Below, in pieces: positions 1,450-45,444 of a DNA stretch of 64,000 bases. The first letter of the stretch is position 1; each line of letters starts with the position of its first letter. Both the position numbers and the translations under genes were made by a program. The notes beneath the pieces were generated by a model, which searched no databases, was not told where the DNA came from, and saw only the letters and a program-made list of their open reading frames with translations. Source of the DNA: Pseudoxanthomonas composti (GTDB taxonomy: Bacteria > Pseudomonadota > Gammaproteobacteria > Xanthomonadales > Xanthomonadaceae); the NCBI RefSeq assembly GCF_004122095.1, contig NZ_SAWZ01000011.1, positions 1-64,000 of the forward strand, in the 5' to 3' direction.

Positions 1450-1463
1450 TGGACGCGCGAGTC

Positions 1464-1487
1464 AGGGGCGGCATGGCTGCCCCTTTT
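1464..1487 (+). terminator. Rho-independent terminator after the catalase gene
   Basis: The 9-bp stem AGGGGCGGC / GCTGCCCCT (one G-U pair) has the 3-base loop ATG and is followed by TTTT. It lies 14 bases after the catalase stop and separates the gene from ku. Confidence 0.8.
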
Positions 1488-1550
1488 CGTTCACACCTGG
1501 GCGATGACGCCGGCGCTACAACGGCGGCAGTTTCCCGCGGGGTGAATTGA

Positions 1551-2486: not shown

Positions 2487-2516
2487 GCGTCCAACCCACC
2501 ATCGAAGGAGACCGCC

Positions 2517-2693
2517 ATGAGCGATGACAAGGCCAAGACCGGCGCGCCGGACCGCGACCGCATCAACGTCAACGAAGACTACGAGCTGCAGTACTGGACC
2601 AAGGCCCTGGGCGTCAGCGCCGACGAGCTGCGCGAAGCTGTGCGCGCGGCGGGGACCAGCGCCGACGCGGTGCGCCGGCACCTCGGGAAATAG
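2517..2693 (+). CDS. DUF3606 small protein
   Basis: A 58-residue protein whose centre, DRDRINVNEDYELQYWTK followed by ALGVSADELREAV and TSADAVRRHL, matches the DUF3606 family. The function is unknown; the end of the chain looks like a small helical DNA- or protein-binding fold. AAGGAG at 2505-2510 gives good spacing to the ATG at 2517. It sits 30 bases after ku and 12 bases before ligD, so it is probably co-transcribed with them. A role in end joining is only an inference from position, because DUF3606 genes are also common elsewhere in proteobacterial genomes. Confidence 0.9.
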   Translation: MSDDKAKTGAPDRDRINVNEDYELQYWTKALGVSADELREAVRAAGTSADAVRRHLGK

Positions 2694-2705
2694 GTTCACC
2701 GCGCC

Positions 2706-5303
2706 ATGTCGTTGACCGAATACCGCCGCAAGCGCAGCTTCGACAGCACCCGGGAGCCCGAGCCCGGCAAGGCCCTGCCCAAGGGCCGGCGGGCGATCTT
2801 CGTGGTGCAGCTGCACCATGCCAGCCGCCGGCACTACGACTTCCGCCTGCAGATCGGTGATGCGTTGAAGAGCTGGGCGGTGCCCAAGGGGCCCAGCTAC
2901 GATCCCAAGGTCAAGCGCATGGCGGTGGAAGTGGAGGACCACCCGGTGGACTACGCCGAGTTCGAAGGCGAGATTCCCAAGGGGCAATACGGTGGCGGAC
3001 ACGTGGCGCAGTTCGACCGCGGGGTCTGGGCCACCACCGGCGATCCGGAGGCGCAGCTGGCCAAGGGGCACCTGCGCTTCGAGCTGTTCGGCGACAAGCT
3101 CAAGGGCGGCTGGCACCTGGTGCGCTCCGGCAAGGCCGCCAGGCAGCCGCAGTGGCTGCTGTTCAAGGACGAGGATGCCTTCGCCAGCAAGGTGGAAGCG
3201 GACGATTTGCTGGGCGATGTCACCCAGCCACCGGCGGCGGACCTCAAGCGCGCCGGCAGTGGCAAGCCGGACAAGCGCGGCCTGAAGCAAGTCTCGGTCC
3301 CGCGCAGGAAGCGCCGCAAGGACTGGGGCGCCAAAGCTTCGGCCTTGCCGCATGCCAAGCGCGCCAAGGCGCCGGACGGTCCGTTCTCGCCACAGCTGGC
3401 AAGGCTCGGGCAGCAGCCGCCTGCGGGCGAGCAGTGGATCCACGAGATCAAGTGGGATGGCTACCGGATCCTGGCCACCGTGGCCGAGGGCCAGGTTCGG
3501 CTGTGGTCGCGCAATGCCCTGGAGTGGACCGACAAGATTCCCGAGATTCGCAACGCGGTGGCCGCCCTGGGACTGCGTTCGGGCGCGCTGGATGGCGAGC
3601 TGATCGCTGGCAGCGGCAGCCGCGAGGACTTCAACCTGTTGCAGGCCACCTTGTCCGGCGAGCGCCAGGGCACGCTGGCCTATGCGCTGTTCGATCTGCT
3701 GCACGTGGACGGGGTGGATATCGCCGATGCGCCGTTGCTGGAGCGCAAGGCCCTGCTCAAGCAACTGCTGGACGATGCCGACGCCGCGCACCTGGCCTTC
3801 AGCTCGCATATCCAGGCCGATGGCGACGCGGCCTACCGGCTCGCGGCCGAGCGCGACTTCGAAGGCATCATCTCCAAGCGGGGCGATCGCGCCTATCAGG
3901 GCGGCAGGAGCGATGAGTGGCGCAAGACCAAGCTGCTGGCCACCGATGAGTTCGCCGTGGTCGGCTACACCGCACCGAAAGGCAGCCGCAGCGGGTTCGG
4001 CTCGCTGCTGCTGGCGCGCCCCGACGCGCAGCATGGCTGGCGCTATGCCGGGCGCGTGGGGTCCGGCTTCAACGACGAAACGATCCAGGCCCTCAGCGAA
4101 AGGCTGGGCAAGCCGGGCAGCAAGACGCCTTCGGTGTACGTGCCGGAGAACGACACCGACCTGCGCTCGGCCATCTGGTTCGCGCCCAGGTTCGTAGTGG
4201 AAGTGCACTCGCGTGGCATCGGTGGCCAGTCGCTGTTGCGGCAGGCCTCGTTCAAGACCGTCAGGCCGGACAAGGACGTGGGCGACCTGGCCGACTCGGA
4301 CCAGGGCCCGCGCCAGCGCCGGGCCAAGCCGGCAGCGGCCGCGACGGCCGCGAAGAAAGGCACCGCGGCCACCAAGGCCAAACAGTCGGCTCCGGCGCGC
4401 AAGGCCGGCAGCAAGGCAGCGCCCGCCGCGCGGCAGCCACCGCCGCTGTCATCGCCCGGCAAGCTGTTGTTCCCGGACGACAAGATCACCAAGCAGGACG
4501 TGTGGAACTACTACGAGGCCGTGATGGATCACCTGCTGCCGGAGGTGATCGACCGCCCCTTGTCCATCATCCGCTGTCCGGCCGGCACCGGGCGGCCCTG
4601 CTTCTTCCAGAAGCACCACACCGCGGGCCTGGAGCTGGTGGACTCGGTGCGCCTGAAGGAGGACAGCGGCGTCAACGCGCACTACCTGGTGGTGCGCGAC
4701 CCCGCCAGCCTGCTGGAGCTGGTGCAATTCAACGCGCTGGAGTTCCACCCCTGGGGCAGCCACGCCGAGGCGCCGGATCGCGCCGACCGGGTGGTGTTCG
4801 ACCTGGATCCGGGGCCGGGCGTGTCCTTCGACGAGGTCAAGCGCGCGGCCGTGGAAATCCGCAAGCTCCTGGAGCAGCTGGAACTGCAGTCCTTCCTGCG
4901 GGTGTCCGGCGGCAAGGGCCTGCACGTGGTGGTGCCGCTGAACCCGGGGTGCGACTGGGACCTGACCAAGCGCTTTGCCAAGGGGTTCGCCGATGCGCTG
5001 GCGCAGCAGTCGCCGGACCGCTTCGTGTCCACCGCGACCAAGCGCCTGCGCAAGGGGCGGATCTTCGTGGACTACCTGCGCAACGGGCGCGGCGCTACCG
5101 CTGTGGCGTCCTACTCGCTGCGCGGACGGCCCGGCGCGCCGGTGGCCATGCCGTTGTCCTGGAGCGAGCTGGGCAAGCTCAAGCGCGCCGATGCCTTCAC
5201 CCTCAAGGACGTGCCCGCCAAGCTCAAGCGCCGCCGCAAGGATCCGTGGGAGGGCATCTCGATGCTGAAGCAGAACCTGGCCCGCTGGGCCGATAGCGAG
5301 TAG
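2706..5303 (+). CDS. ligD: ATP-dependent DNA ligase LigD (three-domain NHEJ enzyme)
   Basis: An 865-residue multifunctional end-joining enzyme with the domain order phosphoesterase-ligase-polymerase, as in Pseudomonas LigD. The 3'-phosphoesterase domain covers about residues 30-160 (VVQLHHASRRHYDFRLQ, EGEIPKGQYGGG). The ligase domain covers about 220-540 with the nucleotidyl-lysine motif EIKWDGYR, catalytic K249. A basic Ala/Lys-rich linker spans about 535-575. The primase-like polymerase domain runs to the end, with PCFFQKHH near 635 and the metal-binding FDLDPGPG near 700. The ATG at 2706 follows the DUF3606 gene by 12 bases. With Ku it should repair double-strand breaks, mainly in non-growing cells. 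All three catalytic cores look intact. Confidence 0.97.
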   Translation: MSLTEYRRKRSFDSTREPEPGKALPKGRRAIFVVQLHHASRRHYDFRLQIGDALKSWAVPKGPSYDPKVKRMAVEVEDHPVDYAEFEGEIPKGQYGGGHVAQFDRGVWATTGDPEAQLAKGHLRFELFGDKLKGGWHLVRSGKAARQPQWLLFKDEDAFASKVEADDLLGDVTQPPAADLKRAGSGKPDKRGLKQVSVPRRKRRKDWGAKASALPHAKRAKAPDGPFSPQLARLGQQPPAGEQWIHEIKWDGYRILATVAEGQVRLWSRNALEWTDKIPEIRNAVAALGLRSGALDGELIAGSGSREDFNLLQATLSGERQGTLAYALFDLLHVDGVDIADAPLLERKALLKQLLDDADAAHLAFSSHIQADGDAAYRLAAERDFEGIISKRGDRAYQGGRSDEWRKTKLLATDEFAVVGYTAPKGSRSGFGSLLLARPDAQHGWRYAGRVGSGFNDETIQALSERLGKPGSKTPSVYVPENDTDLRSAIWFAPRFVVEVHSRGIGGQSLLRQASFKTVRPDKDVGDLADSDQGPRQRRAKPAAAATAAKKGTAATKAKQSAPARKAGSKAAPAARQPPPLSSPGKLLFPDDKITKQDVWNYYEAVMDHLLPEVIDRPLSIIRCPAGTGRPCFFQKHHTAGLELVDSVRLKEDSGVNAHYLVVRDPASLLELVQFNALEFHPWGSHAEAPDRADRVVFDLDPGPGVSFDEVKRAAVEIRKLLEQLELQSFLRVSGGKGLHVVVPLNPGCDWDLTKRFAKGFADALAQQSPDRFVSTATKRLRKGRIFVDYLRNGRGATAVASYSLRGRPGAPVAMPLSWSELGKLKRADAFTLKDVPAKLKRRRKDPWEGISMLKQNLARWADSE

Positions 5304-5645
5304 GGCGCTGGCGTAAGCGTGCAAGGAACCGGGTGTCGCTGGGACAAGGTCCTGGTGCGTGCCATCGCGGGCTTGCCGCGCCATTGAACTCCGACTGACG
5401 CCAAACGCTTTCGTGGGAGCGGCTTCAGCCGCGAAGGGACTTTACCGGGAGGTCCCTTCGCGGCTGAAGCGGCTCCCACAGGGGATCGCGGACGCCGCGC
5501 GCCCATGGCGGCGCCAGGGTGTCCACGCCACGCGCCATCCTTGGCGCAATGGCACAGCGAAGGTCTTGCACGAAGTGCGCGCGCGCATCGGCGCGGACGT
5601 AACGCCGCTGTGTGTTTCCCTGGCGCCTGTTCGAAGGAGCGCCTC
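5304..5645. other. Intergenic region between ligD and a lipoprotein gene
   Basis: A 342-base gap. It holds the REP-like palindrome at 5413-5480, described separately, and the Shine-Dalgarno GAAGGAG of the next gene at 5634-5640. I see no coding region or clear promoter. Confidence 0.6.
5413..5480. repeat. REP-like inverted repeat, copy 1
   Basis: GTGGGAGCGGCTTCAGCCGC opens the element and its inverted complement closes it at 5480, with an inner GGGAC...GTCCC pairing. The whole element can form one long hairpin. Related elements occur at 17345-17430, 25515-25585 and 25685-25752 in this window, always between genes, as expected of dispersed REP sequences. Confidence 0.85.
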
Positions 5646-6392
5646 ATGAAGATCCCCGCAGTCCCCCTCATTGCCGCCTGCTGCCTGTCCGCCTGCGGTG
5701 GCGATGATTCGCCTTCCCAGGTGCGGGCCCCCGGCGGCAAGGCGCAGGCCGACACCGCTGTGCTGGAGGCTGGCGCGGCCGCGCTCCAGGACCGCCCGCC
5801 GGTGGAAGCGCTCAACGCCTATCTGGATGGGTTCCACTTCTACAACGGTACGCCCGAGGGGCAAATGGAGGCGCATCACTACTGCGCCATCCTCAACGAG
5901 GATCTGATCCAGTGCGTGATCTACGATGGCAACGTCGGCCAGGCCAAGCTCATGGGCGTGGAGTACATCGTCAGCGAGAAACTCTTCAAGACGCTGCCGG
6001 CGGCCGAGCGCACGTTCTGGCACAGCCATGTCCACGAGGTGAAGTCCGGCCAGCTCATCGCCCCGGGCATCCCCAAGCTGGCCGAGCACCGGTTGATGGA
6101 AAAACTGGTCAGCACCTATGGCAAGACCTGGCACACCTGGCATACGGATCGCAAGAAATCCCTGCCCACCGGCGTGCCGCAGCTGATGATGGGCTTCACC
6201 GCCGACGGACAGGCCCGCGCGGACATGGTGGCCGCGCGCGACCGGCGCATGCAGGTTTCCAGCGAGCAGAACCGCCAGGAACGCCAGGACATCCCGGTCC
6301 CGCAGATCGTGGAAGGCGCCGACCACTGGCAGCGCCAGGCGCCGGTGCAGCTCGGCGATCCCACCGGCGCGCCGCACGAGCACACGCCATAG
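5646..6392 (+). CDS. DUF1264 (OBAP-like) lipoprotein
   Basis: A 248-residue protein with a lipoprotein signal: MKIPAVPLIAACCLSAC with lipobox LSAC, so Cys17 is the probable lipidated residue. The body from about residue 45 (ALNAYLDGFHFYNG, MEAHHYCAILNEDLIQC, KLMGVEYIVSEKLF, FWHSHVHEVKSG, YGKTWHTWH) matches DUF1264, a family that includes plant oil-body-associated proteins. Its biochemical role in bacteria is not established. The GAAGGAG at 5634-5640 sets the start at 5646 rather than any upstream codon. The His-rich stretches HSHVHE and WHTWH could bind metal, which is inference only. It stands alone on its strand. Confidence 0.9.
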   Translation: MKIPAVPLIAACCLSACGGDDSPSQVRAPGGKAQADTAVLEAGAAALQDRPPVEALNAYLDGFHFYNGTPEGQMEAHHYCAILNEDLIQCVIYDGNVGQAKLMGVEYIVSEKLFKTLPAAERTFWHSHVHEVKSGQLIAPGIPKLAEHRLMEKLVSTYGKTWHTWHTDRKKSLPTGVPQLMMGFTADGQARADMVAARDRRMQVSSEQNRQERQDIPVPQIVEGADHWQRQAPVQLGDPTGAPHEHTP

Positions 6393-6478: not shown

Positions 6479-7336
6479 ATGCCCAGCCGTGCCAAGCGCG
6501 CCCGCCGCGCTGCCGATGTCCTCGAATACGCCTATCCATCCCACCTGCGCGATTGCGTCGATGCCCTGCCCAGGTCGCCCGGCGTCTACACCTTTCACGG
6601 CAGGCACGGGTCGCTGCCGCTCTACATCGGCAAGAGCATCAATATTCGCCAGCGGGTCATGGACCACTGCCGCACGCCGGAGGAGGCCTCGCTGTTGCGC
6701 CAGACCACGGCGGTAAGCCATGTCGAAATGGCCGGCGATATCGGGGCGCGGCTGCTGGAGGCGCAGCTGGTGAAGCGGCAGTCGCCCCTGTACAACAAGC
6801 TGCTGCGCAAGGTGCCGCGGCAGTTCTCGATCCGGCTCTACCGGGGTGAGGTCTCCATTGCGCATTCGGCCGAATGCGACGTCACCGCCTCGCCGATGCT
6901 GTTCGGGCTCTACTCCAGCCCACAATCGGCACGCAAGACGCTACGGCGGCTGGCCGATACGCATCGGCTCTGTTACGGGTTGGTGGGAATCGAGCGTCAC
7001 ATTGCCGGGCGTCCCTGCTTTCGCGCCATGCTCAAGCGGTGCGCGGGCGCCTGCTACGGCGAGGAGCCGCTGGAGGCGCATGAAGAGCGCCTGCGTTCGG
7101 CCTTGATCCGCCTGGAGCTGTCGACCTGGCCGTTTCCTGGCGCGATTGCGCTGCGGGAGCAGGGCGAGGGGCTGCAGCAGTTCCACGTGCTCGATGCGTG
7201 GCAGTACCTGGGCAGCGTTCCAGCCTTGGCGCAGGCCGGTGAGTTGGCGGGTGCATCGGCGGGTTTCGACCGCGATTCCTACAAGATCATCAAGGCCGCG
7301 ATCGAGTCGGGGCTGCACGAGGTCAGCGTGCTCTGA
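6479..7336 (+). CDS. cho: Cho-like GIY-YIG excinuclease (UvrC homologue)
   Basis: A 285-residue endonuclease of the UvrC N-terminal type. The GIY-YIG domain occupies about residues 30-115 with GVYTFHG (35-41), LYIGKSINIRQRV (48-60, conserved Arg58) and LLEAQLVKRQSPLYNKLL. A second region (about 140-285) resembles Cho, with CAGACYGEEPLEAHEERL. Cho makes the 3' incision in nucleotide excision repair at lesions UvrC handles poorly. It lacks the UvrC C-terminal nuclease half, as expected for Cho. The assignment to Cho rather than another GIY-YIG protein rests on length and the C-terminal region. Confidence 0.88.
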   Translation: MPSRAKRARRAADVLEYAYPSHLRDCVDALPRSPGVYTFHGRHGSLPLYIGKSINIRQRVMDHCRTPEEASLLRQTTAVSHVEMAGDIGARLLEAQLVKRQSPLYNKLLRKVPRQFSIRLYRGEVSIAHSAECDVTASPMLFGLYSSPQSARKTLRRLADTHRLCYGLVGIERHIAGRPCFRAMLKRCAGACYGEEPLEAHEERLRSALIRLELSTWPFPGAIALREQGEGLQQFHVLDAWQYLGSVPALAQAGELAGASAGFDRDSYKIIKAAIESGLHEVSVL

Positions 7337-7400
7337 GTCTTTTCCAAACGCGTGCGCCGTACCGCGACCCACCTCCGCGGGCCGCGGCACGCAGGCGCAT

Positions 7401-7571
7401 TCAGTGGCGTGCGTTGTCGCGTGCCTTGCCCACTTCGCTTTGGACCTTGCCAGCGCCCTTCTGCAACTTGCCTTCCACTTCCTGGCTCTTGTTGCCGGTC
7501 ACCTTGCCAGCGACTTCCTTGGCAGTGCCCTTGACCTGATTCTTGGCGCCTTCGATGCGATTCTTGTCCAC
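7401..7571 (-). CDS. CsbD-family stress protein
   Basis: A 56-residue hydrophilic, Lys-rich protein: VDKNRIEGAKNQVKGTAKEV followed by KVTGNKSQEVEGKLQKGAGK, which is the CsbD signature. CsbD proteins are abundant general-stress proteins of unknown mechanism. The start is taken as GTG at 7571 because GGAG lies 6 bases upstream on this strand. A longer version would add residues without family similarity. It is convergent with the cho gene. Confidence 0.88.
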   Translation of the reverse strand: MDKNRIEGAKNQVKGTAKEVAGKVTGNKSQEVEGKLQKGAGKVQSEVGKARDNARH

Positions 7572-7694
7572 AGCTGACTCCGAAAGTTGAAGCCCGGTAC
7601 GGGCGGGGCCAAGGTGCGCGCGCCGCAGTGTGGTCCGAGTGAAAAGCATGCACGCTGTCCCATCGACGTTTATCCGGCGGAAAGCTCAGCTGCG

Positions 7695-7889
7695 CTAGGG
7701 CGAGCGCAGCGAGGCCTGCAAGGCGGCCGCGATCGCGGCATCGCCACTGACCAGGTCCTTCCAGGCAAGCGCCAGCCCCTTGCGCTTGCCCTTGGGCACC
7801 AGCCGTAGCCCTTCGGGATCGATGGTGAGTGTGTAAGCGGTCTCTTCGATCACCAGCTCGCGTCGCAGCGGTTTGTCCAGGGGCGTCAT
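7695..7889 (-). CDS. Small conserved protein coupled to the alkyladenine glycosylase gene
   Basis: A 64-residue protein (begins MTPLDKPLRRELVIEETAYT, then LTIDPEGLRLVPKGKRKGLALAWKDLVSGD). I do not recognise a named family. The pattern, a short beta-rich stretch followed by a basic segment and AWKDL, is what small conserved proteobacterial proteins often show. Its ATG overlaps the TGA of the upstream glycosylase gene by 4 bases (ATGA at 7889-7886), which indicates translational coupling. Function is unknown. Confidence 0.7.
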   Translation of the reverse strand: MTPLDKPLRRELVIEETAYTLTIDPEGLRLVPKGKRKGLALAWKDLVSGDAAIAAALQASLRSP

Positions 7890-8521
7890 GGCAAATCCTT
7901 GCGCGGTCGCACGCGCGGAGCAGGGCGTCGGGAAACATGTGGGTGGTCTGGCACATGCCAGCGCCACGGGAAATCGATGGCTTTGCTGATGCCGATCCGC
8001 GGCCCGATGGCAGGCTCGACTGCCGGCGGCATCCCATCGCTGACGATGCGGATGCCACGGTCGCCGGTCACCAGGTCGGCGCCATCCAGCGCCTTGGTGA
8101 TCCCCAGGGCCTGCGATAGCCGCCCCGGGCCACTGCCCAGCGCCTGCAGCTTGTCCACGCCTGGCCGGGCCTGGCGGATGCGCTCCAGGCCCGCCACTGG
8201 CTCGATGGCGCGCAGCAACACACCCCAGCCCTGGCCGGCATCGCCGCACACGGCATTGGCGCCCCAGTGCATGCCATAGGAGAAGTACACGTACAGGTGC
8301 CCCGGCTCGCCGAACATCGTGGCGGTGCGGGGGGTGGGGCCACGGAACGAATGGGCGGCCGGATCCTCCGTGCCGGCGTAGGCCTCCACCTCGACGATCC
8401 TGCCTGCACGTCCATCGTCTTTGACCAGCAGCTTGTTCAGCAGCTCGGGCGCCACCAGCGTGGGGTGGCGTCGGTAGAAGTCGCGCGGCAGCGTCAGCCA
8501 GTTCAAATCATCACGCTGCAT
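7886..8521 (-). CDS. DNA-3-methyladenine glycosylase (AAG/MPG type)
   Basis: A 211-residue base-excision repair enzyme of the mammalian-type alkyladenine glycosylase family. Typical segments are LPRDFYRRHPTLVAPELLNK, IVEVEAYAGTEDPAAHSFRG, TMFGEPGHLYVYFSYGMHW, GVLLRAIEP and GPGRLSQALGI. It removes alkylated purines such as 3-methyladenine and hypoxanthine. The ATG at 8521 is chosen because homology begins directly after it; the upstream reading frame has no family similarity. The C-terminus ends in a short Arg/Pro-rich stretch. It forms a two-gene unit with the small gene at 7695-7889. Confidence 0.94.
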   Translation of the reverse strand: MQRDDLNWLTLPRDFYRRHPTLVAPELLNKLLVKDDGRAGRIVEVEAYAGTEDPAAHSFRGPTPRTATMFGEPGHLYVYFSYGMHWGANAVCGDAGQGWGVLLRAIEPVAGLERIRQARPGVDKLQALGSGPGRLSQALGITKALDGADLVTGDRGIRIVSDGMPPAVEPAIGPRIGISKAIDFPWRWHVPDHPHVSRRPAPRVRPRKDLP

Positions 8522-8719
8522 GCAGGCCCCATGTCCGTCTGAACGCCCCGGCGCTGCCCGGCGGGCGCGCCGAAGATCCCGGGATGCGAACGCCCGCCTG
8601 CACGCCCACCGGCCTGGCTGGGGCGGCCCCGGCTCGGCCACGCCCGGGGAGGCCCGGCATCGGCAGGCGAGCCGGCGCGATGGCCCTGGACACGTGGGGC
8701 GCGACCAGATGTACAATGC

Positions 8720-8737
8720 GTTCAGAAATTACTGAAC
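8720..8737. promoter_or_regulatory. Perfect palindrome GTTCAG-N6-CTGAAC, likely operator
   Basis: The inverted repeat GTTCAGAAATTACTGAAC lies 15 bases before the GTG start of the GbsR-like regulator and so upstream of the whole regulator-cydAB operon. Its position and symmetry suit binding of a dimeric winged-helix regulator, most likely the product of the next gene acting on its own operon. A -10-like TACAAT lies just upstream at 8712-8717. Assignment is inference. Confidence 0.6.
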
Positions 8738-8752
8738 GATCAGGATGTTCAA

Positions 8753-9337
8753 GTGGAATCACTACCGTCCTCCATCCAGCGCTTCGTGCTGCATTTCGGG
8801 GAAATGGGAAGCAGGTGGGGCATCAACAGGACCGTGGGCCAGATCTACGCCCTGCTGTTCTTGTCAGACCGCCCGCTAACCGGGGATGAAATCGCCGACA
8901 CGCTGTCGATGTCGCGCTCGAACGTGAGCATGGGGCTGAAGGAACTGGATTCCTGGCGGCTGATCCGCAAGCGCCACCTGCCCGGCGACAGGCGCGAGTA
9001 CATCGAAACGCCCAGCGATGTCTGGCAGATCGCGCGCACCCTGATCGAGGAGCGGCGCCGCCGCGAGATCGACCCCACGCTGACCCTGCTGCGCGACGTC
9101 CTGCTGGAGCGCCCTGCCGGGGCCGAGGAAAAACATGCACAGCTCAAGATGCGCGAGATGCACGATTTCATCGAGCTGTTGACCCTGTGGAGCGACGATA
9201 TCCAGAAACTGGACGACACCAGCCTGCGGCAGCTGCTCAACCTGGGCCGGGGCGTGTCGCGCGTGTTCGAGCTCAAGGGCAAGGTGAGTCTGTTGAAGAG
9301 CGCCGCGCGCGCCAAGCCGGTCGATAGGAGCCCCTGA
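8753..9337 (+). CDS. GbsR/MarR-like transcriptional regulator
   Basis: A 194-residue protein with a winged helix-turn-helix at about residues 25-90 (GINRTVGQIYALLFLSDRPL, TGDEIADTLSMSRSNVSMGL, KELDSWRLIRKRHLPGDRRE). It is of the GbsR type, MarR-like with an extended C-terminal helical part. Its GTG start is preceded by AGGA at 8742-8745 and by the palindrome at 8720-8737. The last base of its stop codon is the first base of the cydA ATG (TGATG), so it is probably co-transcribed and translationally coupled with the terminal oxidase genes it likely controls. The signal it senses is unknown. Confidence 0.9.
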   Translation: MESLPSSIQRFVLHFGEMGSRWGINRTVGQIYALLFLSDRPLTGDEIADTLSMSRSNVSMGLKELDSWRLIRKRHLPGDRREYIETPSDVWQIARTLIEERRRREIDPTLTLLRDVLLERPAGAEEKHAQLKMREMHDFIELLTLWSDDIQKLDDTSLRQLLNLGRGVSRVFELKGKVSLLKSAARAKPVDRSP

Positions 9338-10734
9338 TGGATGCCTTGTTGCTTGCCAGAGCGCAGTTCGCCTTTACCGTCTCCTTCCACTTCATCTTCC
9401 CGGCCTTCTCCATTGGCCTGGCCAGCTACCTGATGGTGCTGGAGGGGCTGTGGCTGAAGACCGGCAGCGGTCTGTACGCCAACCTCTATCGCTACTGGTT
9501 GAAGATCTTCGCCGTGGTCTTCGGCATGGGCGTGGTCTCCGGGATCGTGATGTCCTACCAGTTCGGGACCAACTGGTCGGTGTTCTCGGCCAAGGCCGGG
9601 CCCATCATCGGCCCGCTGATGGCCTACGAGGTGATGACCGCCTTCTTCCTGGAAGCCGGCTTCCTGGGGGTGATGCTATTCGGCATCAACAAGGTAGGGC
9701 CGCGGCTGCATTTCTTCGCCACCTGCATGGTCGCCCTGGGCACCCTGATCTCGGCGACCTGGATCCTCAGCGTGAACAGCTGGATGCAGACCCCGGCCGG
9801 CTACGCCATCAACGAGGCCGGGCAGTTCGTCCCCGCGGGGTCATGGTGGCCCATCGTGTTCAACCCGAGCTTCCCGTATCGCCTGGTGCATACGGTCATC
9901 GCCGCCTTCCTGACCACCTCGCTGGTGGTGGGCGCGGTGGGCGCGTGGCACCTGCTGCGCGACCGCAGCAATCCCGGCGCGCGCAAGATGTTCTCCATGG
10001 CCATGTGGATGCTGGCGGTGAGCGCCCCGATCCAGATCCTGGCCGGCGATGCCCACGGCCTGAATACGCTGGAGCGCCAACCTGCCAAGGTGCTGGCGAT
10101 GGAAGGCGACTACCGGCCCAGTCCGGACGGGGCGCCATTGATCCTGTTCGGCCTGCCCGACAGCGAGCAGGGCAGGGTGCGCTATGAGGTCGCCATCCCC
10201 AAGGTCGGCTCGCTGATCCTCAAGCACGATCCGAACGCCCCGCTGCAGGGCCTGACCGATTTCCCCAAGGAGCTGTGGCCGCCGGTGCCGGTCGTGTTCT
10301 GGTCCTTCCGCATCATGGTCGGCCTGGGCATGGCGATGCTGGCGCTGGGCCTGTTCGGACTGCTGGCCCGCTATCGCAGGAAGCTGTACGAATGGGCGCT
10401 GCTGCATCGGGCGGCGGTAGCCATGGGCCCGGCCGGTTTCGTTGCGGTCATCGCCGGATGGGTGACCACCGAAGTCGGGCGCCAGCCGTTCACGGTGTAT
10501 GGGCTGATGCGCACGGCCGATTCGGCCTCGCCGCTGGATGCCTCGGCCTTGGCCGTGTCCCTGCTGGCCTTCGTGGTGGTGTATTTCTTCGCCTTCGGTG
10601 CCGGCACCTATTACATCCTGCGCCTGATGGCCAAGCCACCGCAGCCGCACGAGCCGGCGCCGCCGCGTGTGCCACAGCGCGCGGCCGGCATCACGCCCGC
10701 CGCGGCGGTCGACGCCAACGTCAAGGAGCACTGA
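9337..10734 (+). CDS. cydA: Cytochrome bd-type quinol oxidase subunit I (CioA-like)
   Basis: A 465-residue integral membrane protein with multiple hydrophobic helices from ARAQFAFTVSFHFIFPAFSI at the N-terminus. H18 is the candidate heme ligand, and GRQPFTVYGLMRT the conserved segment late in the chain. It catalyses quinol oxidation with reduction of oxygen to water. At 465 residues it is shorter than E. coli CydA (522), consistent with a short Q-loop as in the cyanide-insensitive CIO branch. The C-terminal 40 residues are Pro/Ala-rich. The gene order regulator-cydA-cydB-DUF2474 marks a CIO-type operon. Confidence 0.96.
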   Translation: MDALLLARAQFAFTVSFHFIFPAFSIGLASYLMVLEGLWLKTGSGLYANLYRYWLKIFAVVFGMGVVSGIVMSYQFGTNWSVFSAKAGPIIGPLMAYEVMTAFFLEAGFLGVMLFGINKVGPRLHFFATCMVALGTLISATWILSVNSWMQTPAGYAINEAGQFVPAGSWWPIVFNPSFPYRLVHTVIAAFLTTSLVVGAVGAWHLLRDRSNPGARKMFSMAMWMLAVSAPIQILAGDAHGLNTLERQPAKVLAMEGDYRPSPDGAPLILFGLPDSEQGRVRYEVAIPKVGSLILKHDPNAPLQGLTDFPKELWPPVPVVFWSFRIMVGLGMAMLALGLFGLLARYRRKLYEWALLHRAAVAMGPAGFVAVIAGWVTTEVGRQPFTVYGLMRTADSASPLDASALAVSLLAFVVVYFFAFGAGTYYILRLMAKPPQPHEPAPPRVPQRAAGITPAAAVDANVKEH

Positions 10735-10735
10735 C

Positions 10736-11740
10736 ATGGAAGCGCTGGATCTGACCTTGATCTGGGCCGGCATCATTGCCCTGGCCGTGTTCGCCTACGT
10801 GGTCATGGACGGCTTCGACCTGGGCATCGGCATCCTGTTCCCCACCTTCGCCGTGGGCGAGGAACGCGACCAGGCGATGAACTCGATCGCGCCGGTGTGG
10901 GATGGCAACGAGACCTGGCTGGTCATGGGCGGCGGCGGGCTGATGGCCGCCTTTCCCATCGCCTACGCCATCGTGCTGCCGGCCACTTACCCGCTGGTGA
11001 TCGCCATGCTGCTGGGCCTGGTCTTTCGCGGCGTGGCCTTCGAGTTCCGCTGGCGCGACCCGGCGCATCGCGCGTTCTGGGACTGGGCCTTCTGCATCGG
11101 CTCGGTGGTGGCCACCTTCTCGCAAGGGGTGATGCTGGGCGCCATCCTGCAGGGCATCCATGTCGAGCAGGGCGCCTATGCCGGCGGCTGGCTGGACTGG
11201 CTGAGCCCGTTCTCGCTGCTGACCGGGGCGGCGCTGCTGATCGGCTACGCGCTGCTGGGTGCGACCTGGTTGTTCGGCAAGGTGGAAGGCACGGCGCAGC
11301 AGCATGCGCGCAGGATGGCCGGACGCCTGGCCTGGATCATGCTGCTGGCCATCGCCGTGGTCAGCGCCGCCACGCCCCTCCTCAACCTGGAGTACGCCCG
11401 ACGCTGGCTGGAGTTCCCCAGCGTGCTGCTGACCGCCCAGGTGCCGCTGCTGACCATCATCGCCATGGTCCTGCTGCTGCGCGGGCTGCGCAAAGGGCGG
11501 GAGCGTTTGCCGTTCCTGATGGCGCTGGGGTTGTTCCTGCTGGGCTTCATCGGGCTGCTGATCAGCGTCTTTCCCTACGTAGTCCCTGGCGCGGTCACCA
11601 TCTGGGAGGCGGCCGTTCCCAGGGAAAGCCAGGTCTTCCTGCTGGTCGGCACGGCCATCATCATCCCGGTCATCGTCCTGTACACCAGCTGGTCGTACTG
11701 GGTCTTCCGCGGCAAGGTGGGAACCGAGGGGTACCACTGA
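10736..11740 (+). CDS. cydB: Cytochrome bd-type quinol oxidase subunit II (CioB-like)
   Basis: A 334-residue membrane protein beginning MEALDLTLIWAGIIALAVFA, then YVVMDGFDLGIGILFP, and NSIAPVWDGNETWLV, the hallmark of CydB. Eight or nine hydrophobic segments can be seen. It is the structural partner of CydA. The ATG at 10736 follows the cydA stop by one base; an earlier in-frame start would lie inside cydA. Its stop is one base before the next small gene. Confidence 0.96.
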   Translation: MEALDLTLIWAGIIALAVFAYVVMDGFDLGIGILFPTFAVGEERDQAMNSIAPVWDGNETWLVMGGGGLMAAFPIAYAIVLPATYPLVIAMLLGLVFRGVAFEFRWRDPAHRAFWDWAFCIGSVVATFSQGVMLGAILQGIHVEQGAYAGGWLDWLSPFSLLTGAALLIGYALLGATWLFGKVEGTAQQHARRMAGRLAWIMLLAIAVVSAATPLLNLEYARRWLEFPSVLLTAQVPLLTIIAMVLLLRGLRKGRERLPFLMALGLFLLGFIGLLISVFPYVVPGAVTIWEAAVPRESQVFLLVGTAIIIPVIVLYTSWSYWVFRGKVGTEGYH

Positions 11741-11741
11741 C

Positions 11742-11858
11742 ATGGACAGGCAGGCGCCGCTCTGGCAGCGACTGGGCTGGATGGTCGCCATCTGGCTGGC
11801 CAGCGTGCTCGCCCTGGGGGCGGTGGCGAGCGTGATCCGCTTCTGGCTCAAGGGGTGA
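11742..11858 (+). CDS. DUF2474 single-helix membrane peptide of the bd oxidase
   Basis: A 38-residue peptide: WQRLGWMVAIWLASVLALGA forms one transmembrane helix, followed by a short basic end. This matches DUF2474, small proteins encoded directly after CioAB-type oxidase genes. It is a candidate for a small subunit analogous to CydX. It begins one base after the cydB stop. Confidence 0.85.
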   Translation: MDRQAPLWQRLGWMVAIWLASVLALGAVASVIRFWLKG

Positions 11859-11953
11859 GGGACGCGGCCTGCCTTCCGGGCGTGCACCGCGTCTTGTCCT
11901 GGCGTTGACACGGCCGTCGGTAGCCTGAGGCCGACTCGCCTGGAACCGGTTTC

Positions 11954-12088
11954 GTGCACAACTCCATGTTTCTCACCGTTGCCGCCACGATCGGCGTTGG
12001 CCTGATCCTCGGGATCGCCGCCATCGTGGTGCACGACGTGGTGGCCAACTACCGGCGCATGGTGCGGCTGGGGCGCAACGCGCGCTAG
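11954..12088 (+). CDS. Possible small single-helix membrane protein
   Basis: GTG-started frame of 44 residues (40 from the ATG at 11966). It contains the hydrophobic segment FLTVAATIGVGLILGIAAIV followed by a cytoplasmic-looking basic tail NYRRMVRLGRNAR. The positive-inside pattern and clean hydrophobic helix suggest a real peptide, but no Shine-Dalgarno or family match is evident. It lies about 95 bases after the DUF2474 gene on the same strand. Confidence 0.4.
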   Translation: MHNSMFLTVAATIGVGLILGIAAIVVHDVVANYRRMVRLGRNAR

Positions 12089-12199
12089 CCAAGTCTGCGG
12101 CGTAGACACATTGCAGCGGCTGTCAACGCCTTTCTCGTCGAATGCTGCACGGCCATATCTGGATAGAGGCCAGCACCTTCTAGACCCCAGGAGCCGCCC

Positions 12200-12493
12200 T
12201 CAAGGCTCCCGCGGCGCGCGTCGAAGCACCTTTTCGGTGAGTTCCTGCAGCTGGTGGCTCAGCGGGCTCAATACCCGCATCTGCTCGCCATCGGCAAGCC
12301 GCGCGGCGGAGGTCTGCAGCGATTGCGCCAGCACCGCCGAGACCCGCTGGTCCCATGCTTCCCGGAACTCGACCGGGTATGGGTGGGTGGCGATGAGCGT
12401 ATCGAGCATCGCCCCCTGGGCCAGGACCAGGGCCTGCAGCTCGGCCAGGGCGCGCGTGGTGTCGGCAAGTGACAAGCGTTCGTCGTCTTTCAT
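12200..12493 (-). CDS. Hypothetical helical protein
   Basis: A 97-residue soluble, probably all-helical protein (SLADTTRALAELQALVLAQG, then LSPLSHQLQELTEKVL). No family is recognised. Codon usage fits the genome (G/C at third positions). There is no clear Shine-Dalgarno before the ATG at 12493. It is a lone gene on the minus strand between the oxidase operon and the DUF1349 gene. Confidence 0.55.
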   Translation of the reverse strand: MKDDERLSLADTTRALAELQALVLAQGAMLDTLIATHPYPVEFREAWDQRVSAVLAQSLQTSAARLADGEQMRVLSPLSHQLQELTEKVLRRAPREP

Positions 12494-12855
12494 GAGTACG
12501 GGCCGGCACCACGGAGGGGCACGAGACTAGCCGGGCGCTCGTGAGCGTTTTGCAGTGGATGGCCCCCGTGCCGCGCATACGGCGCCGACTTGCAGTCGGA
12601 GAAGGGGGTTAGAGGGGCGGAAGCCAAATCATGCCTTCGCAAGCCTGCGCTGGGCCCTGTGTGGGCGTGGCGGGTAGTGAGTGATGCCGACGGCGATGCA
12701 GGACCTGCAGCCCCTGCATCCCCGCACGCAGCTGCCATCGTCCGGCGGCGGGACGTAAAGCCCGCCACCTCGTCCTGGCGCGCACAGGCGCGTGCGCGGC
12801 AAGGCGGGTACCCTGTGGCATTCGGTCACTGCAGGCTGCCGCTCCGGGAGGATCC
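12494..12855. other. Intergenic stretch without recognised content
   Basis: About 360 bases between divergent genes. Only the Shine-Dalgarno of the DUF1349 gene (GGGAGG at about 12846) stands out. It presumably contains the promoters of both neighbours. No credible reading frame or repeat was found. Confidence 0.5.
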
Positions 12856-40219: not shown

Positions 40220-43200
40220 ATGAAGCCCGCTGTCTCAAGTGCGAGGGGTCCTAGGCATTTGCTTTCGTTTGCTACCCATTTCATGGGGGCAATTGCTGCT
40301 CTGGCCCTGACGGGCGGAGCTTTTGCCGGCTCCGCAGTCGCGCAGACTGTCAGTGCTTGCTACGAGGGCGTCTGCAAGAGCTCGCTTAGTGAAGCGGAAG
40401 CGCTCATGCGGCAAGACCCCATCTACGGGAGCCTGTTCCGCAAGTCGACGTCTCGTCTTCTTACTGTGAGTGACAGGTCGTCGACCCGTGCTATCCAGTA
40501 CGATGTTGATAACACGGTGCCAGAGAGGTTTTATCAGCCCGGTTACGTCATGGACGGCTGGGGCTCTTATGAAACGGGCTGCGCGGCCTCTGAGAGTGAT
40601 GAATATACCTGCGTAAGTGAGCAGGAGATTATAGCTCGCTTTGCCGCGTCCATGAAAAATTTATACGCCGGTTGCAACTTGCGGAATGAAGCTATCGGAG
40701 GCTCCTACATCGAGCCGTTTAGGACTGTTAGGTCTTATTACAATGGGTCCTCGGGTAGTACCGGAAAAATCGATAGCACGCATCAAGGCGCAGGGCCGAA
40801 CGGCCAAAAAGCATGGAGTTATGAAGTCAATTGCCCCGCATGGGGTGAGCCTGTAATTTGGTATCCGCGCTGGCATCCGATCTATAAGACTCAGGTCTTT
40901 CAGTGTCCAGTTGGCTTCTATGCTGAAGATGGAATTTCGGCGGCGTACGCCGATGCCAATACGAGCCCAGACGCGATCGTCGAGTGGCCAAAACTTTGCG
41001 CGCCTGGAAAGCAGTACGCTGAGATCAGCGTCACCACAACGCAGGTGGCGAGCCCATGCACTGCGCATCCTTGCCATCCTTCCACAGGTGATAAATCAAG
41101 GGCGGAAGTCGATTTCGAGTTTGCTGGGCGGCCTTTTGTGCGTAGCTATCACTCTCTCGGCCAAGCTTCAGGACACTCCGGATCGGGAGCTTCTTGGTCA
41201 CATACCTACGAAGAGCGTCTAGATATCTACGGAAGTGTCGTGCTCGTCGATGAGCGCGGTTTTGTTGAGACCTTTTCCGCCCTCAACTCCGCAGCGGATC
41301 GTTTGCGAGGAAGAAATTCCCAGCGGCTGCTCACGTTGGACAGCAACCATCGCTATCACCTCTATGAGGCAAACCGGGCCGAGAAGATCTTTGACAGGTC
41401 GGGGAGTCTTATCTCAGTAGTCGATCCAAACAAGCCAGCTCATAGCCTTGAGTTGGTGTATACGAACGGGCGACTCGCCAGAGTGACTGATGGTACCGGG
41501 CGCTCACTCGTGTTTCATTACTCGGGAGGCTTGCTGAGCTCGATTGACCGGCCCGACGGGCAGAAGGTCAGCTATTATTATGATGGCGACAACAACCTCA
41601 GCGCTGTTGACTACGGCGGGGGCGTGGTTAAAAAGTATCACTACCATGAGCCTGAGCTTGCCGGCTCTAATCAAATTAATCACCTCACTGGCATCACGTC
41701 TGAGGACGGGCGCCGCTATGCTAGCTTCGCATACGACAGCAAGGATCGTGTTGTTTCCAGCGTTTTGCACGTCGCCGATGCAAGGGTGGAGCGTACCTAC
41801 CTGAATTACTCATCCGAGACGTCGGTTTCAGTTGTAGTGGACGGGGAGGGAGATACGACATACACCATCGAGCCTGGCATGTACCGCCGAATCACCGCGG
41901 TCTCGCGTCCTAACGGGAGCAGTGGCTACCAGTTCAACAGTGATGATCGTCTCGCGCAGGAGACGGACGCAAAGGGGGTGGTGACTTCCTATACCTACAC
42001 GGACGCGTACCCTAGCTCGATCGTTCGCGGTGTAGGGACAGCGAGCGAGAGAAAGGAAGTCATCTTGCGCGACGCCAATAATCAGACTGTGAGACGCGAG
42101 CTCTGGTCTAAGGCTGGTGGAACGGAGAGGCTGGAATCAGTTGAGGCATTTGTTTACGACAATGCGCGTCGGCTGCAAGCGTCTTGCGCCGTCGACCCTG
42201 CTGTATCGGTCGCGGCGAGTTATCAGTGCGGATCATCTGCATCGGCTCCGGCGGGGGTGAGGCAGCGCAGGTTCACCTACTGTGATACTTCTGACGCTGC
42301 GCAATGTCCGCTTTTGAGTCTGATGAAATCCGCTGTCGGCGGCACTGAGCCGGAAGTCGCCTTGGAGTATCGCGCCGTTGATCATGCTGTGTGCACAACC
42401 AATCAAGCTGGTTGCGCTTATCGCAAAGGCGACCTCTGGAAAATCACCAACGGCCTGGGCCAGGTCACCGAAACCCTGGCTTACGACGGCGCCGGCCGCC
42501 CCAAATCGGTCAAGGACCCCAACGGCGTCATCACCGATTACGAGTACCACGTCCGCGGCTGGCTGACCGCGGTCAAGGTGCGCGGCACCAACAACAGCGC
42601 CGAGACCGACGACCGCATTACCCGCATCGAGTATTGGCCCACCGGCCTGGTCAAGAAGGTCAGCCTGCCCATGGGCGCCGCGACCAACTACACCTACGAT
42701 GCCGCCCATCGCCTGACCCAGGTCTCGGACAACGCCGGCAACAAGATCGTCTACACGCTGGACAATGCCGGTAACCGCATCAAGGAAGAGGTCAAGAACT
42801 CCAGCGGCACGCTCAAGGCCACCCTGAGCCGGGTCTACAACCAGCTCGGCCAGCTGGCCACGGCGGCCGACGCCAGCGCCAATCCGACCGACTTCTCCTA
42901 CGACGCCAATGGCAACACCACTGGCACCGAGGACGCCCTGGGCCGCACGACCAGCTACGCCTTCGACGCCCTGAATCGGCTGAAGGAGTCCATCCAGGAC
43001 ACCGCGGGTATCCAGGCCAAGACCGGCGTGAAGTACAACGCCCTGGACCAAGTCACCGAGGTGACCGACCCCAAGGGCCTGAAGACCACCTACAAGTACA
43101 ACGGCTTTGGAGACCTGACCGAACTCAAGAGCCCGGACACCGGCACCACCACCTACACCTACGACGAGGCCGGCAACGTCAAGACCGCCAAGGATGCCCG

Positions 43201-45055
43201 TGGCAAGACCGCCACCTATGCCTACGATGGTCTGAACCGGGTCACCTCGATCGGCTACGCCAGCACCGCCCTCAACGTCACCTACGGCTACGACACGGCC
43301 GGCACGGCCTGCGCCAGCGGCGAGACCTTCGCCAAGGGCCGCCTGAGCTCGATGACTGACGGGGCAGGCAGTACCCAGTACTGCTACAACCGCTTCGGCG
43401 ATTTGGTGCGCAAGGTGCAGACCATCAACGGTGTCAGCCTGACCCTGCGCTACACCTATGCAGCCAATGGCAACCTCACCGGCATGGTCTACCCGGACAA
43501 CACCGTCGTGGACTACACGCGTGACGTGCAGGGCAGGGTGACGGCGGTGGGTGTGACCCGACCGGCGGCCAGCCGTGAGGTCGTGCTCAGCCAAGCCAGC
43601 TACCACCCCTTCGGCCCCGTGGCTGGCTGGACCTATGGCAACGGCCGCACCATGAGCCGGCCGGTGGATCTGGACTACCGCCCCCTAGCCATCGTCGACT
43701 CGGCCGCCGATGGCCTTCAGGTCGCCTTTGGCTACGACCCGGTGGGCAACCTGACCAGCCTGAACTCGGCCACCAACACCACCCCGCAGCTGACCATCGG
43801 CTACGACGCCCTGGGCCGACTGACCTCGCTGAGCGATCCCAACGCCACCCAGCCGTTGGAGGCCTACACCTATGACGCCACCGGCAACCGCACCAGCGCC
43901 AAGCAGAACGGCCTCACCAAGGCCTACACCTATGCCTCGACCAGCCACCGCCTGACCAATGTCGGCGGCCTGGCCAGAAGCTACGCCGCCGACGGCAGCA
44001 CCACCGCCCTCAACGGCACAGCCAAGCAGTTCACCTACGACGACACCGGCCGGATGCAGCAGGCCAAGAACGGCAGCACCGTGGTGATGAACTACCGCTA
44101 CAACGGGCGAGGCGAGCGCACCCGCGCCTATCTCGGCAGCGCCAACACCTACACGCTCTACGACGAGGCCGGCCACTGGCTGGGCGACTACGGCAACAAC
44201 GGCACAGTCATCCAACAGGCGATCTGGATGGAAGACCTGCCGGTGGGCGTGGTCACCACCGCCAAGACCCACTACCTCCAGCCCGATCACCTAGGCACCC
44301 CACGCGCTGTCATCGACCCTGCTAGCAACAAGGCCATCTGGAGCTGGAGCATCCGCGGTGAAGCCTTCGGCGCTACCGCACCGAACGAGGACCCCGACCA
44401 GGACGGGCAGGCGTTCGTCTTCAACCTGCGATTCCCCGGACAGCGCTATGACGCGGCGAGCGGACTGAACTACAACTACTTCCGGGACTATGAGCCTGGC
44501 ACGGGGCGGTATGTGCAGAGCGACCCGATTGGCTTTGCCGGCGGCATATCAACGTATGGATACGTCAGCAATTCCCCGCTCGAGTACCTTGATGCACTCG
44601 GACTCCAGAGGGGCATCCCGATCCGTGGTCCTACCACTCCCGGATATCCGGGTAGTTCGGGTGGCTACTACGATCCCAACAGTCCCTACAACACGGGTCC
44701 AAACGGTGAGACTGTATACCCAGGCATGTCTATCCCAAGCTCTGCCGATATCGTAGCCGGCATCCTCACATCGCCGCTTCTTACGTCTCCTGCTTCTCCG
44801 GTCCCCACGTTCCTTTCGTTAACCAAGCATCTATCGAGCGAGATGGCGTGCGGTGAAGGTGAGAATTGCCAGAGGCGTTACGAAGAAGAGGCGGCTCGAT
44901 GCGAAACTTGGCGAGGTCGAGGACCGCGCGGTGAGAGTGAGCGGTGGTACTACGCCTGTCTCTCCCGTGCCGCAAATCGGCGTAACCTATGCACGGGTAA
45001 CGGTGGTCCGACTGGCGAAGAACCACCAGAATGGTCTGGCAGAGATTTGCGATAA
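40220..45055 (+). CDS. Secreted RHS/YD-repeat polymorphic toxin-like protein
   Basis: A 1611-residue RHS protein. Residues 1-41 form a Sec signal (hydrophobic FMGAIAALALTGGAFAGSAV, cleavage likely after AVA). A Cys-containing N-terminal region follows. A DUF6531-like start of the repeat shell lies near 275 (CHPSTGDKSRAEVDFEFAGR). Many YD repeats (GRLTSLSDP, YTYDATGNRT type) run to about 1370. The RHS core is DHLGTPRAVID ... FPGQRYDAASGLNYNYFRDY, EPGTGRYVQSDPIGFAGG, ending LDALGL near 1462. The 149-residue tip has six cysteines at its end and is a candidate toxin of unknown type. TAAGGA precedes the ATG. No VgrG, PAAR or Tc genes are adjacent. The first ~735 residues and the tip are encoded by visibly lower-GC DNA than the core. 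Confidence 0.92.
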   Translation: MKPAVSSARGPRHLLSFATHFMGAIAALALTGGAFAGSAVAQTVSACYEGVCKSSLSEAEALMRQDPIYGSLFRKSTSRLLTVSDRSSTRAIQYDVDNTVPERFYQPGYVMDGWGSYETGCAASESDEYTCVSEQEIIARFAASMKNLYAGCNLRNEAIGGSYIEPFRTVRSYYNGSSGSTGKIDSTHQGAGPNGQKAWSYEVNCPAWGEPVIWYPRWHPIYKTQVFQCPVGFYAEDGISAAYADANTSPDAIVEWPKLCAPGKQYAEISVTTTQVASPCTAHPCHPSTGDKSRAEVDFEFAGRPFVRSYHSLGQASGHSGSGASWSHTYEERLDIYGSVVLVDERGFVETFSALNSAADRLRGRNSQRLLTLDSNHRYHLYEANRAEKIFDRSGSLISVVDPNKPAHSLELVYTNGRLARVTDGTGRSLVFHYSGGLLSSIDRPDGQKVSYYYDGDNNLSAVDYGGGVVKKYHYHEPELAGSNQINHLTGITSEDGRRYASFAYDSKDRVVSSVLHVADARVERTYLNYSSETSVSVVVDGEGDTTYTIEPGMYRRITAVSRPNGSSGYQFNSDDRLAQETDAKGVVTSYTYTDAYPSSIVRGVGTASERKEVILRDANNQTVRRELWSKAGGTERLESVEAFVYDNARRLQASCAVDPAVSVAASYQCGSSASAPAGVRQRRFTYCDTSDAAQCPLLSLMKSAVGGTEPEVALEYRAVDHAVCTTNQAGCAYRKGDLWKITNGLGQVTETLAYDGAGRPKSVKDPNGVITDYEYHVRGWLTAVKVRGTNNSAETDDRITRIEYWPTGLVKKVSLPMGAATNYTYDAAHRLTQVSDNAGNKIVYTLDNAGNRIKEEVKNSSGTLKATLSRVYNQLGQLATAADASANPTDFSYDANGNTTGTEDALGRTTSYAFDALNRLKESIQDTAGIQAKTGVKYNALDQVTEVTDPKGLKTTYKYNGFGDLTELKSPDTGTTTYTYDEAGNVKTAKDARGKTATYAYDGLNRVTSIGYASTALNVTYGYDTAGTACASGETFAKGRLSSMTDGAGSTQYCYNRFGDLVRKVQTINGVSLTLRYTYAANGNLTGMVYPDNTVVDYTRDVQGRVTAVGVTRPAASREVVLSQASYHPFGPVAGWTYGNGRTMSRPVDLDYRPLAIVDSAADGLQVAFGYDPVGNLTSLNSATNTTPQLTIGYDALGRLTSLSDPNATQPLEAYTYDATGNRTSAKQNGLTKAYTYASTSHRLTNVGGLARSYAADGSTTALNGTAKQFTYDDTGRMQQAKNGSTVVMNYRYNGRGERTRAYLGSANTYTLYDEAGHWLGDYGNNGTVIQQAIWMEDLPVGVVTTAKTHYLQPDHLGTPRAVIDPASNKAIWSWSIRGEAFGATAPNEDPDQDGQAFVFNLRFPGQRYDAASGLNYNYFRDYEPGTGRYVQSDPIGFAGGISTYGYVSNSPLEYLDALGLQRGIPIRGPTTPGYPGSSGGYYDPNSPYNTGPNGETVYPGMSIPSSADIVAGILTSPLLTSPASPVPTFLSLTKHLSSEMACGEGENCQRRYEEEAARCETWRGRGPRGESERWYYACLSRAANRRNLCTGNGGPTGEEPPEWSGRDLR

Positions 45056-45057
45056 GT

Positions 45058-45444
45058 ATGGAAGAGGTAGACGCTAACACGGGCGCACGAGAGAGTAAGT
45101 TCCCCTCTGGGGAATTGGAGTCGCGAGGTAATTTTATCGACGGGCGCCAAGTGGGAAAACACCAAAGGTGGCACAGAAATGGAAGACTGTTCTCAGAGAT
45201 TGAGTACAAAGATGGCGTAATGGATGGCGTAATCCGTGAGTGGGACGAATCTGGTCAAATGACGCTTTGCGCCAATTTGTGCTCTGGCGAGTTCCATGGC
45301 AAATACCGGACCTGGTGGAATTCTGGCTCGCTCAAGGAGGATGGTGAGTTTAGGATGGGAAAGCGAGTTGGAAAGTACGTCTGGTACAAGTCAGACGGAT
45401 CTGTGTGGCGGGAGCTCGATTTTCCGGTCGATACATCGGAATGA
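45058..45444 (+). CDS. YwqK/MORN-variant protein, candidate immunity to the RHS tip
   Basis: A 128-residue protein built of MORN-like repeats: FPSGELESRGNFIDGRQVGK, HQRWHRNGRLFSEIEYKDGV, SGEFHGKYRTWWNSGSLKED, GEFRMGKRVGKYVWYKSDG. This is the pattern of the YwqK family annotated as antitoxin or immunity. Its ATG lies two bases after the RHS stop, so translation is coupled; an ATG at 45031 inside the RHS gene would add nine residues. Base composition is low-GC like the RHS tip. Position directly behind a polymorphic toxin tip is the main reason to call it immunity, which is inference. Confidence 0.82.
   Translation: MEEVDANTGARESKFPSGELESRGNFIDGRQVGKHQRWHRNGRLFSEIEYKDGVMDGVIREWDESGQMTLCANLCSGEFHGKYRTWWNSGSLKEDGEFRMGKRVGKYVWYKSDGSVWRELDFPVDTSE

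Follow-up and report, generated by a model that had tools for sequence, protein, structure and literature searches.

RHS/WapA-type and Teneurin-like toxins are built on a common plan, in which a YD-repeat shell is followed by a short variable C-terminal domain and, directly behind it, by a small gene. Cleavage at the end of the core is a general trait of RHS proteins, and the usual motif at this position is DPxGL. PMC13018210 depicts bacterial TLPs as shells that enclose a toxic tip, with Sec export predicted for part of them, and their tips as polymorphic, about 15 kDa on average, and accompanied by cognate immunity proteins. The locus reported here lies in a 64,000-nucleotide stretch of contig NZ_SAWZ01000011.1 of Pseudoxanthomonas composti (the window) and follows the same plan. 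However, it differs from the known RHS and TLP toxins in that its tip and its immunity type match no toxin family searched, and its comparison with the TLP architecture covers the YD shell.

The gene arrangement also resembles YwqJ-YwqK of Bacillus subtilis, in that a small antitoxin gene adjoins the toxin gene. YwqK is a MORN-repeat protein, and the toxin domain of YwqJ is of the deaminase type. PMC8321402 lists the pair as a putative polymorphic toxin with its antitoxin. Unlike in that pair, the carrier in the window is an RHS protein rather than an LXG protein, the toxin domain is a different one, and the small protein gives no match to a YwqK model in the Pfam and NCBIfam searches. A "YwqK domain" is named in a figure legend about T6SS-related effectors of Pseudomonas fluorescens F113, some of them with Rhs domains (PMC7970981), and in Paraburkholderia phymatum vgrG is followed by the gene for a "YwqK family antitoxin" (PMC8356804), so MORN-type genes beside genes for secreted toxins are not new. 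Both of these are T6SS settings, however, and the sections of the two articles available to us note no pairing with a five-Cys tip. A survey of the literature at the level of titles and the beginnings of abstracts likewise returned no pairing of a MORN protein with a five-Cys tip on an RHS protein, and the main text of a polymorphic toxin survey (PMC3482391), as far as it was accessible, gave no match for MORN, YwqK, or cysteine-rich. Judged by its sequence, the tip-MORN pair is a candidate new type of tip and immunity protein in a kind of system that is itself well known.

The RHS Protein

The features of the locus are listed below.

40220..45055, + strand: putative secreted RHS/YD-repeat polymorphic toxin, open frame of 1611 aa, stop at 45053-45055
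40220..40342, + strand: Sec-type signal peptide, residues 1-41, predicted cleavage between AVA and Q, assigned by eye with a hydropathy peak of 1.61 at residue 22
41066..41275, + strand: DUF6531, residues 283-352 (Pfam PF20148, 40.8 bits)
44363..44605, + strand: RHS-associated core domain, residues 1382-1462, with the end SDPIG...LDALGL (TIGR03696, 67.5 bits)
44606..44848, + strand: Pro/Gly-rich linker of the tip, apparently exchangeable from tip comparison, residues 1463-1543
44849..45052, + strand: candidate toxin domain, five-Cys helical hairpin, residues 1544-1611, C-x5-C-x10-C-x18-C-x10-C
45058..45444, + strand: MORN-repeat (MORN_2, PF07661) protein of 128 aa, without a hydrophobic N-terminus, candidate immunity protein

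The first-pass annotation of this DNA had described an N-terminal signal peptide, a YD-repeat shell with a core ending at LDALGL, and a mode of release that does not involve a T6SS; the first two points are confirmed, and the third is supported. The Sec-type signal is recognizable by eye and as a hydropathy peak, the Pfam search finds 18 stretches of RHS repeats (PF05593) in the 1611-residue protein, and the TIGR03696 match ends at residue 1462. The protein thus contains both the RHS/YD repeats and the RHS-associated core of an RHS polymorphic toxin. Both core Asp residues (SDPIG, LDALGL) are present, and the position of the DPxGL motif reads DALGL. PAAR and VgrG domains give no match in the RHS protein up to E 1 in Pfam, and TssC/VipB (PF05943), the sole T6SS gene searched, has no match in the genome, with a positive E. 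coli control; neither the sheath gene nor the PAAR or VgrG domain of a T6SS Rhs effector was therefore found. Because a Sec signal is present and the genome shows no T6SS sheath gene, export probably proceeds through Sec and a further outer step.

The GC content is 0.52-0.59 in the front part of the RHS gene and 0.51-0.58 across the tip and the MORN gene, compared with about 0.65-0.70 for most of the flanking DNA. Third-position GC is 0.72 in the RHS gene and 0.57 in the MORN gene. Of the eight nearest called frames, six have values of 0.83-0.91, and the other two (38192 and 48565), which are doubtful frames, have 0.70 and 0.72. On this composition, recent acquisition is likely.

The Tip and Its Five-Cys Domain

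The tip follows the core end LDALGL and comprises 149 residues (1463-1611), in agreement with the earlier annotation. The count of six cysteines with C-x3 to C-x10 spacings given there does not hold, since the cysteines number five (residues 1544, 1550, 1561, 1580, and 1591), are spaced x5, x10, x18, and x10, and include no C-x3. The pattern arises in none of 20,000 shuffles of the window tip. A comparison of five tips, those of the window, protein P0005, and genomes G615, G1136, and G459, yields C-x5..9-C-x10-C-x18-C-x10-C in every one of them, and among 38 RHS loci the x18 form of the five-Cys pattern is restricted to the window, G615, G1136, and G459. The proposal that all 149 residues form the toxin therefore has to be narrowed: the tip exists, and from these alignments the conserved unit, and thus the candidate toxin part, is its last 68 residues, with front residues that appear to be exchangeable. 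In the window and P0005 the front segment is Pro/Gly-rich. The front segments of G615, G1136, and G459 are Gly/Ala-rich and glycine-zipper-like and contain 9-19 GxxxG/A motifs; that of G459 scores 20.4 bits against Gly-zipper_Omp, below the threshold of 25. Indeed, the tips of G1136 and G459 are 54% identical in the front segment and 29% in the hairpin, and the combination of similar fronts with hardly similar hairpins indicates that the tip is made of two exchangeable parts.

The window tip has no family match in Pfam, NCBIfam, PADLOC, PHROGs, or the sequences of the PDB, and a PDB search with a four-sequence tip profile gives a best E of 0.81. The hairpin contains no conserved His and no recognized catalytic motif, and the former argues against His-based nuclease chemistry. 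An AlphaFold2 model built from two sequences, the window tip and P0005, has a mean pLDDT of 48.5 with 30 residues at 70-90. At this low confidence it shows helices at tip residues 85-102 and 111-130, and comparison of the model with PDB structures returns generic helical matches only. All cysteines but the first (tip residues 88, 99, 118, and 129) are located on the two modelled helices, and for this reason cross-helix disulfides 88-129 and 99-118, with the first Cys unpaired, are likely on the basis of the model.

A protein database search finds the tip in one other protein, P0005, where the match spans 44% of the query at 64% identity. Tip profile searches add G615 and the divergent tip of G459 among 398 genomes of the order, and G1136 (84.5 bits) among 395 genomes of the family; G1136 was outside the profile that found it. 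The open frames of G1136 and G459 as read, 1111 and 719 codons, are both shorter than that of the window. Plasmids, phages, and viral contigs searched contain no tip relatives. We did not accept as relatives 13 places in 12 genomes with tip-profile matches of 17-24 bits; seven of the 13 have internal stops, and the nine checked by motif show no Cys pattern of this kind. The weak profile matches in G643, G499, G811, G773, and G029 were not counted either, and a Natronomonas match (L036; 31 matched residues at 45% identity, no Cys motif) is ascribed to chance. A separate RHS tip, in G039 (L046), has a similar Cys grammar, C-x5-C-x10-C-x13-C-x10-C, which occurs in 4 of 20,000 shuffles. It has x13 where the window tip has x18, is followed directly by a DUF6968 gene instead of a MORN gene, and shows no significant profile similarity to the window tip family (hhalign probability 2.6%).

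Tips and Cores among Relatives

The first-pass annotation had named conservation of the tip alongside the core in all relatives as an outcome that would speak against a toxin. With the last 302 core residues as the query, 17 of the 41 genomes searched contain core matches, the window's own included, at 29 further distinct places. None of these 29 core-sharing ends (L051 and L062 among them; one is cut by the locus end) carries the window tip, which is also absent at E 0.01 from all 60 other related genomes searched, so conservation of the core does not extend to the tip. Five genomes of the same genus have cores 54-62% identical to that of the window and different tips. The variability of the tip behind a similar core is that of an RHS polymorphic toxin. 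The other tips at core-sharing ends include a DUF4329 domain in G017 and several that are Cys-rich in other ways, and eight of the 29 ends share an overlap of exactly 4 nt between the RHS stop and the gene that follows. The affinities of core and hairpin can also differ within one protein: the G615 core is nearest to that of G459 (55%), whereas its hairpin is 49-55% identical to those of the window, P0005, and G1136 and only 32% identical to that of G459. Core relationships therefore do not explain which proteins share the tip.

The genome of the window encodes two additional RHS proteins. One (L068, G000:C12:424000-431500, ORF 1269-5711) carries an HEYYH motif in its tip and is followed directly by a lipoprotein-like gene, and a similar tip with a similar neighbour occurs in G048 (L065). 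The tip of the other (L067, G000:C2:120000-134000, ORF 7175-12544) matches the Tae4 amidase (PF14113, 32.4 bits), and a 230-aa frame overlaps the end of this RHS gene.

Linkage of the MORN Gene to the Tip

As annotated earlier, the MORN gene begins two bases behind the RHS gene, at 45058 after the stop at 45053-45055. An alternative in-frame ATG is present at 45031, and the start at 45058 is favoured because the relative in G615 starts 4 nt after the RHS stop. The 128-aa product matches MORN_2 (PF07661) with 52 bits (cut-off 29.6). The MORN half of the previous YwqK/MORN label is thus confirmed. The YwqK half depends on these MORN_2 repeats alone, since no model match is found in Pfam or in NCBIfam 20.0, a release that may lack a YwqK model. 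The Pfam MORN_2 model run against the whole genome gave no matches, but this search, which missed the window gene itself and in which no control genome was positive, is uninformative.

A MORN gene lies directly behind the RHS stop in the window (+2 nt), in G615 (+4 nt; 43% identical to the window protein), and in G1136 (+1 nt; 50% identical), where two MORN genes stand in tandem behind the tip. Adjacency of tip and MORN gene is therefore seen at all three close tip loci with readable downstream DNA, counting the window and leaving out P0005. All frames of the 38 RHS loci were scanned with a profile built from ten MORN relatives, with the three positive loci part of the profile by construction. 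The informative outcome is that it gives no match in the 35 others (partly overlapping, about 31 distinct ends), the divergent G459 among them; at two of these 35 the neighbours are at most partly visible, since L049 stops ~70 nt behind the RHS stop and L065 soon after its second end. Linkage of the MORN gene to this tip type elsewhere had been a further point raised with the first-pass annotation, and it is found behind the tip in both G615 and G1136 and at none of the 35 other RHS loci.

A specific small gene behind the tip that travels with it is thus present at three of three close loci, although not at G459, where the gene behind the divergent tip encodes an unnamed 80-aa protein of a different kind. 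This exception suggests that MORN genes do not accompany the fold in every case. Considering that the pair is found again in two further genera, on RHS carriers that differ, and that the 35 other loci give no MORN match, the sequence data make it very probable that the five-Cys tip and the MORN protein are a candidate toxin-immunity pair that has moved as a unit, which strengthens the inference of the first-pass annotation. In a simple hydropathy scan, none of ten MORN proteins has a hydrophobic N-terminus or a membrane segment. These observations suggest that protection by the MORN protein would take place in the cytoplasm, which we think reasonably likely from the scan, and that the target of the tip is probably cytoplasmic as well.

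MORN Relatives without the Tip

At E 1e-4, one of 36 other genomes of the genus, G028, contains a MORN relative (46% identity over 107 residues). The gene (L071, L107; G028:C3:320500-329840) lies within an array of 19 near-identical attC-like sites, most with GCCTAAC/GTTAGGC-type ends, together with an integron integrase (TIGR02249, 454.6 bits; cut-off 265). The flanking attC sites and integrase of an integron gene cassette are therefore present for the G028 relative, and the window contains no attC repeat of the G028 type. The cassettes of G028 hold small genes, and six that were searched beside the MORN relative have no Pfam match. For Vibrio cholerae, a 2017 article reports so far no evidence of integrase-driven insertion of effector-immunity modules (PMC5361080); in G028, which belongs to another genus, an immunity-type MORN gene does lie in a cassette array.

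In contexts of 9-11 kb, the MORN relatives of G524, G681, and G539 are not directly behind an RHS gene. That of G681 precedes two genes, one unnamed and one for a DUF2750 protein, and that of G539 lies in a row of small genes, ~3.9 kb behind an end that looks RHS-like by eye. The weaker matches in G555, G491, G050, G527, and G653 were left out of this count, and no MORN relatives were found in viral contigs. The occurrence of MORN relatives away from the tip is the pattern expected for orphan immunity genes and resembles that of immunity arrays and chromosomal integrons, in that such genes occur without this RHS type and, in one case, between attC sites.

Two further observations concern the surroundings of these genes. 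In G615 (L079), small frames at 7151-9202 behind the tip-MORN pair are a possible orphan immunity array, and one of them, 8621-9202, looks similar by eye to the gene that follows the RHS tip of G022 (L041). In G524 (L098), the MORN gene is behind a radical-SAM gene, and the DNA behind it contains short pieces that, by eye, are like the end of the radical-SAM gene, perhaps a duplication on insertion.

Proposed Mechanism and Alternatives

An RHS polymorphic toxin with a cognate immunity gene is the best overall explanation of this locus, and we hold it with good confidence. In such a mechanism, the RHS protein would leave the producer by Sec and then by a further outer step, without a T6SS. The RHS shell would hold the tip, and cleavage near the SDPIG...DALGL core end would release it. 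Once released, the tip would be a small helical hairpin held together by disulfides. It would enter a competitor, with the front segment, be it linker or glycine zipper, helping its entry, and would halt growth through binding to a target in the cytoplasm and not through His-dependent catalysis. For its part, the MORN protein would stay in the cytoplasm, bind the tip, and protect kin. That the tip is a non-enzymatic binder is a tentative element of this mechanism. Several observations weigh against the explanation as a whole: a disulfide-rich domain acting in the reducing cytoplasm is awkward, the pair is found at only two loci beyond the window, and G459 has a five-Cys tip with another gene behind it. 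In addition, the MORN protein P0006 is 84% identical to that of the window, yet the window's own protein and P0005 are the only RHS proteins recovered by the tip search, which covered a size range of about 886-2819 aa. The frames read for G1136 and G459 are shorter than that of the window, and the structure model, with its mean pLDDT of 48.5 from two sequences, is poor.

The Cys-rich end could instead anchor an RHS surface protein at its C terminus or contribute to its stability, with the MORN protein as a chaperone or assembly partner. The small size of the domain (68 aa), its lack of a recognized catalytic motif or conserved His, and the retention of the Cys spacing across genera would all fit a structural role. 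However, the same-genus proteins with cores 54-62% identical lack the domain and bear other tips, one of the two additional RHS proteins of the window's genome has the Tae4-like amidase tip, and MORN copies occur without this RHS type, one of them as an integron cassette, which fits immunity and not a dedicated chaperone; we regard an anchor as improbable. A membrane-active toxin, in which the segment before the hairpin inserts into the inner membrane and the Cys hairpin serves as a cap, is somewhat easier to entertain, although still unlikely. Gly/Ala-rich segments with GxxxG/A motifs precede the hairpin in three of the five tips (G615, G1136, and G459), and a precedent is offered by EsxX, for which PMC12744356 reports a glycine-zipper, membrane-depolarizing toxin tip. 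The window and P0005, however, have Pro/Gly linkers instead. Immunity proteins to pore formers typically possess a membrane segment or a signal, and neither is seen in any of the ten MORN proteins in the hydropathy scan.

The MORN gene might also be a bystander from an array of immunity genes, with the true immunity gene elsewhere, and the presence of MORN relatives among small genes away from the tip in G681 and G539 lends this some plausibility. Against it stands the direct adjacency at three of three close tip loci, which represent three genera, and at none of the 35 other RHS loci, and we give it very little weight. On balance, the toxin with its cognate immunity gene remains our preferred reading.

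Conclusions

The candidate toxin unit is reduced here to a 68-residue Cys hairpin behind interchangeable linkers or glycine zippers, and together with the MORN protein it provides a small, testable candidate toxin-immunity pair without described relatives in the libraries searched. To our knowledge, the roles of MORN repeats in bacteria are mostly unclear, and the recurring tip-MORN pairing gives a bacterial MORN group a likely function. A more speculative extension, which we put forward with some doubt, is that chromosomal integrons of this group store orphan RHS immunity genes, as with the MORN gene of G028, and that a five-Cys hairpin superfamily pairs with several immunity families. If true, the superfamily would pair with MORN, with DUF6968 (G039), and with the unnamed 80-aa protein (G459), and the MORN cassette of G028 would protect its strain against a toxin that it does not make itself and would be transferable as a cassette. 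The integron cassette suggests a route by which immunity genes may spread without their toxins.
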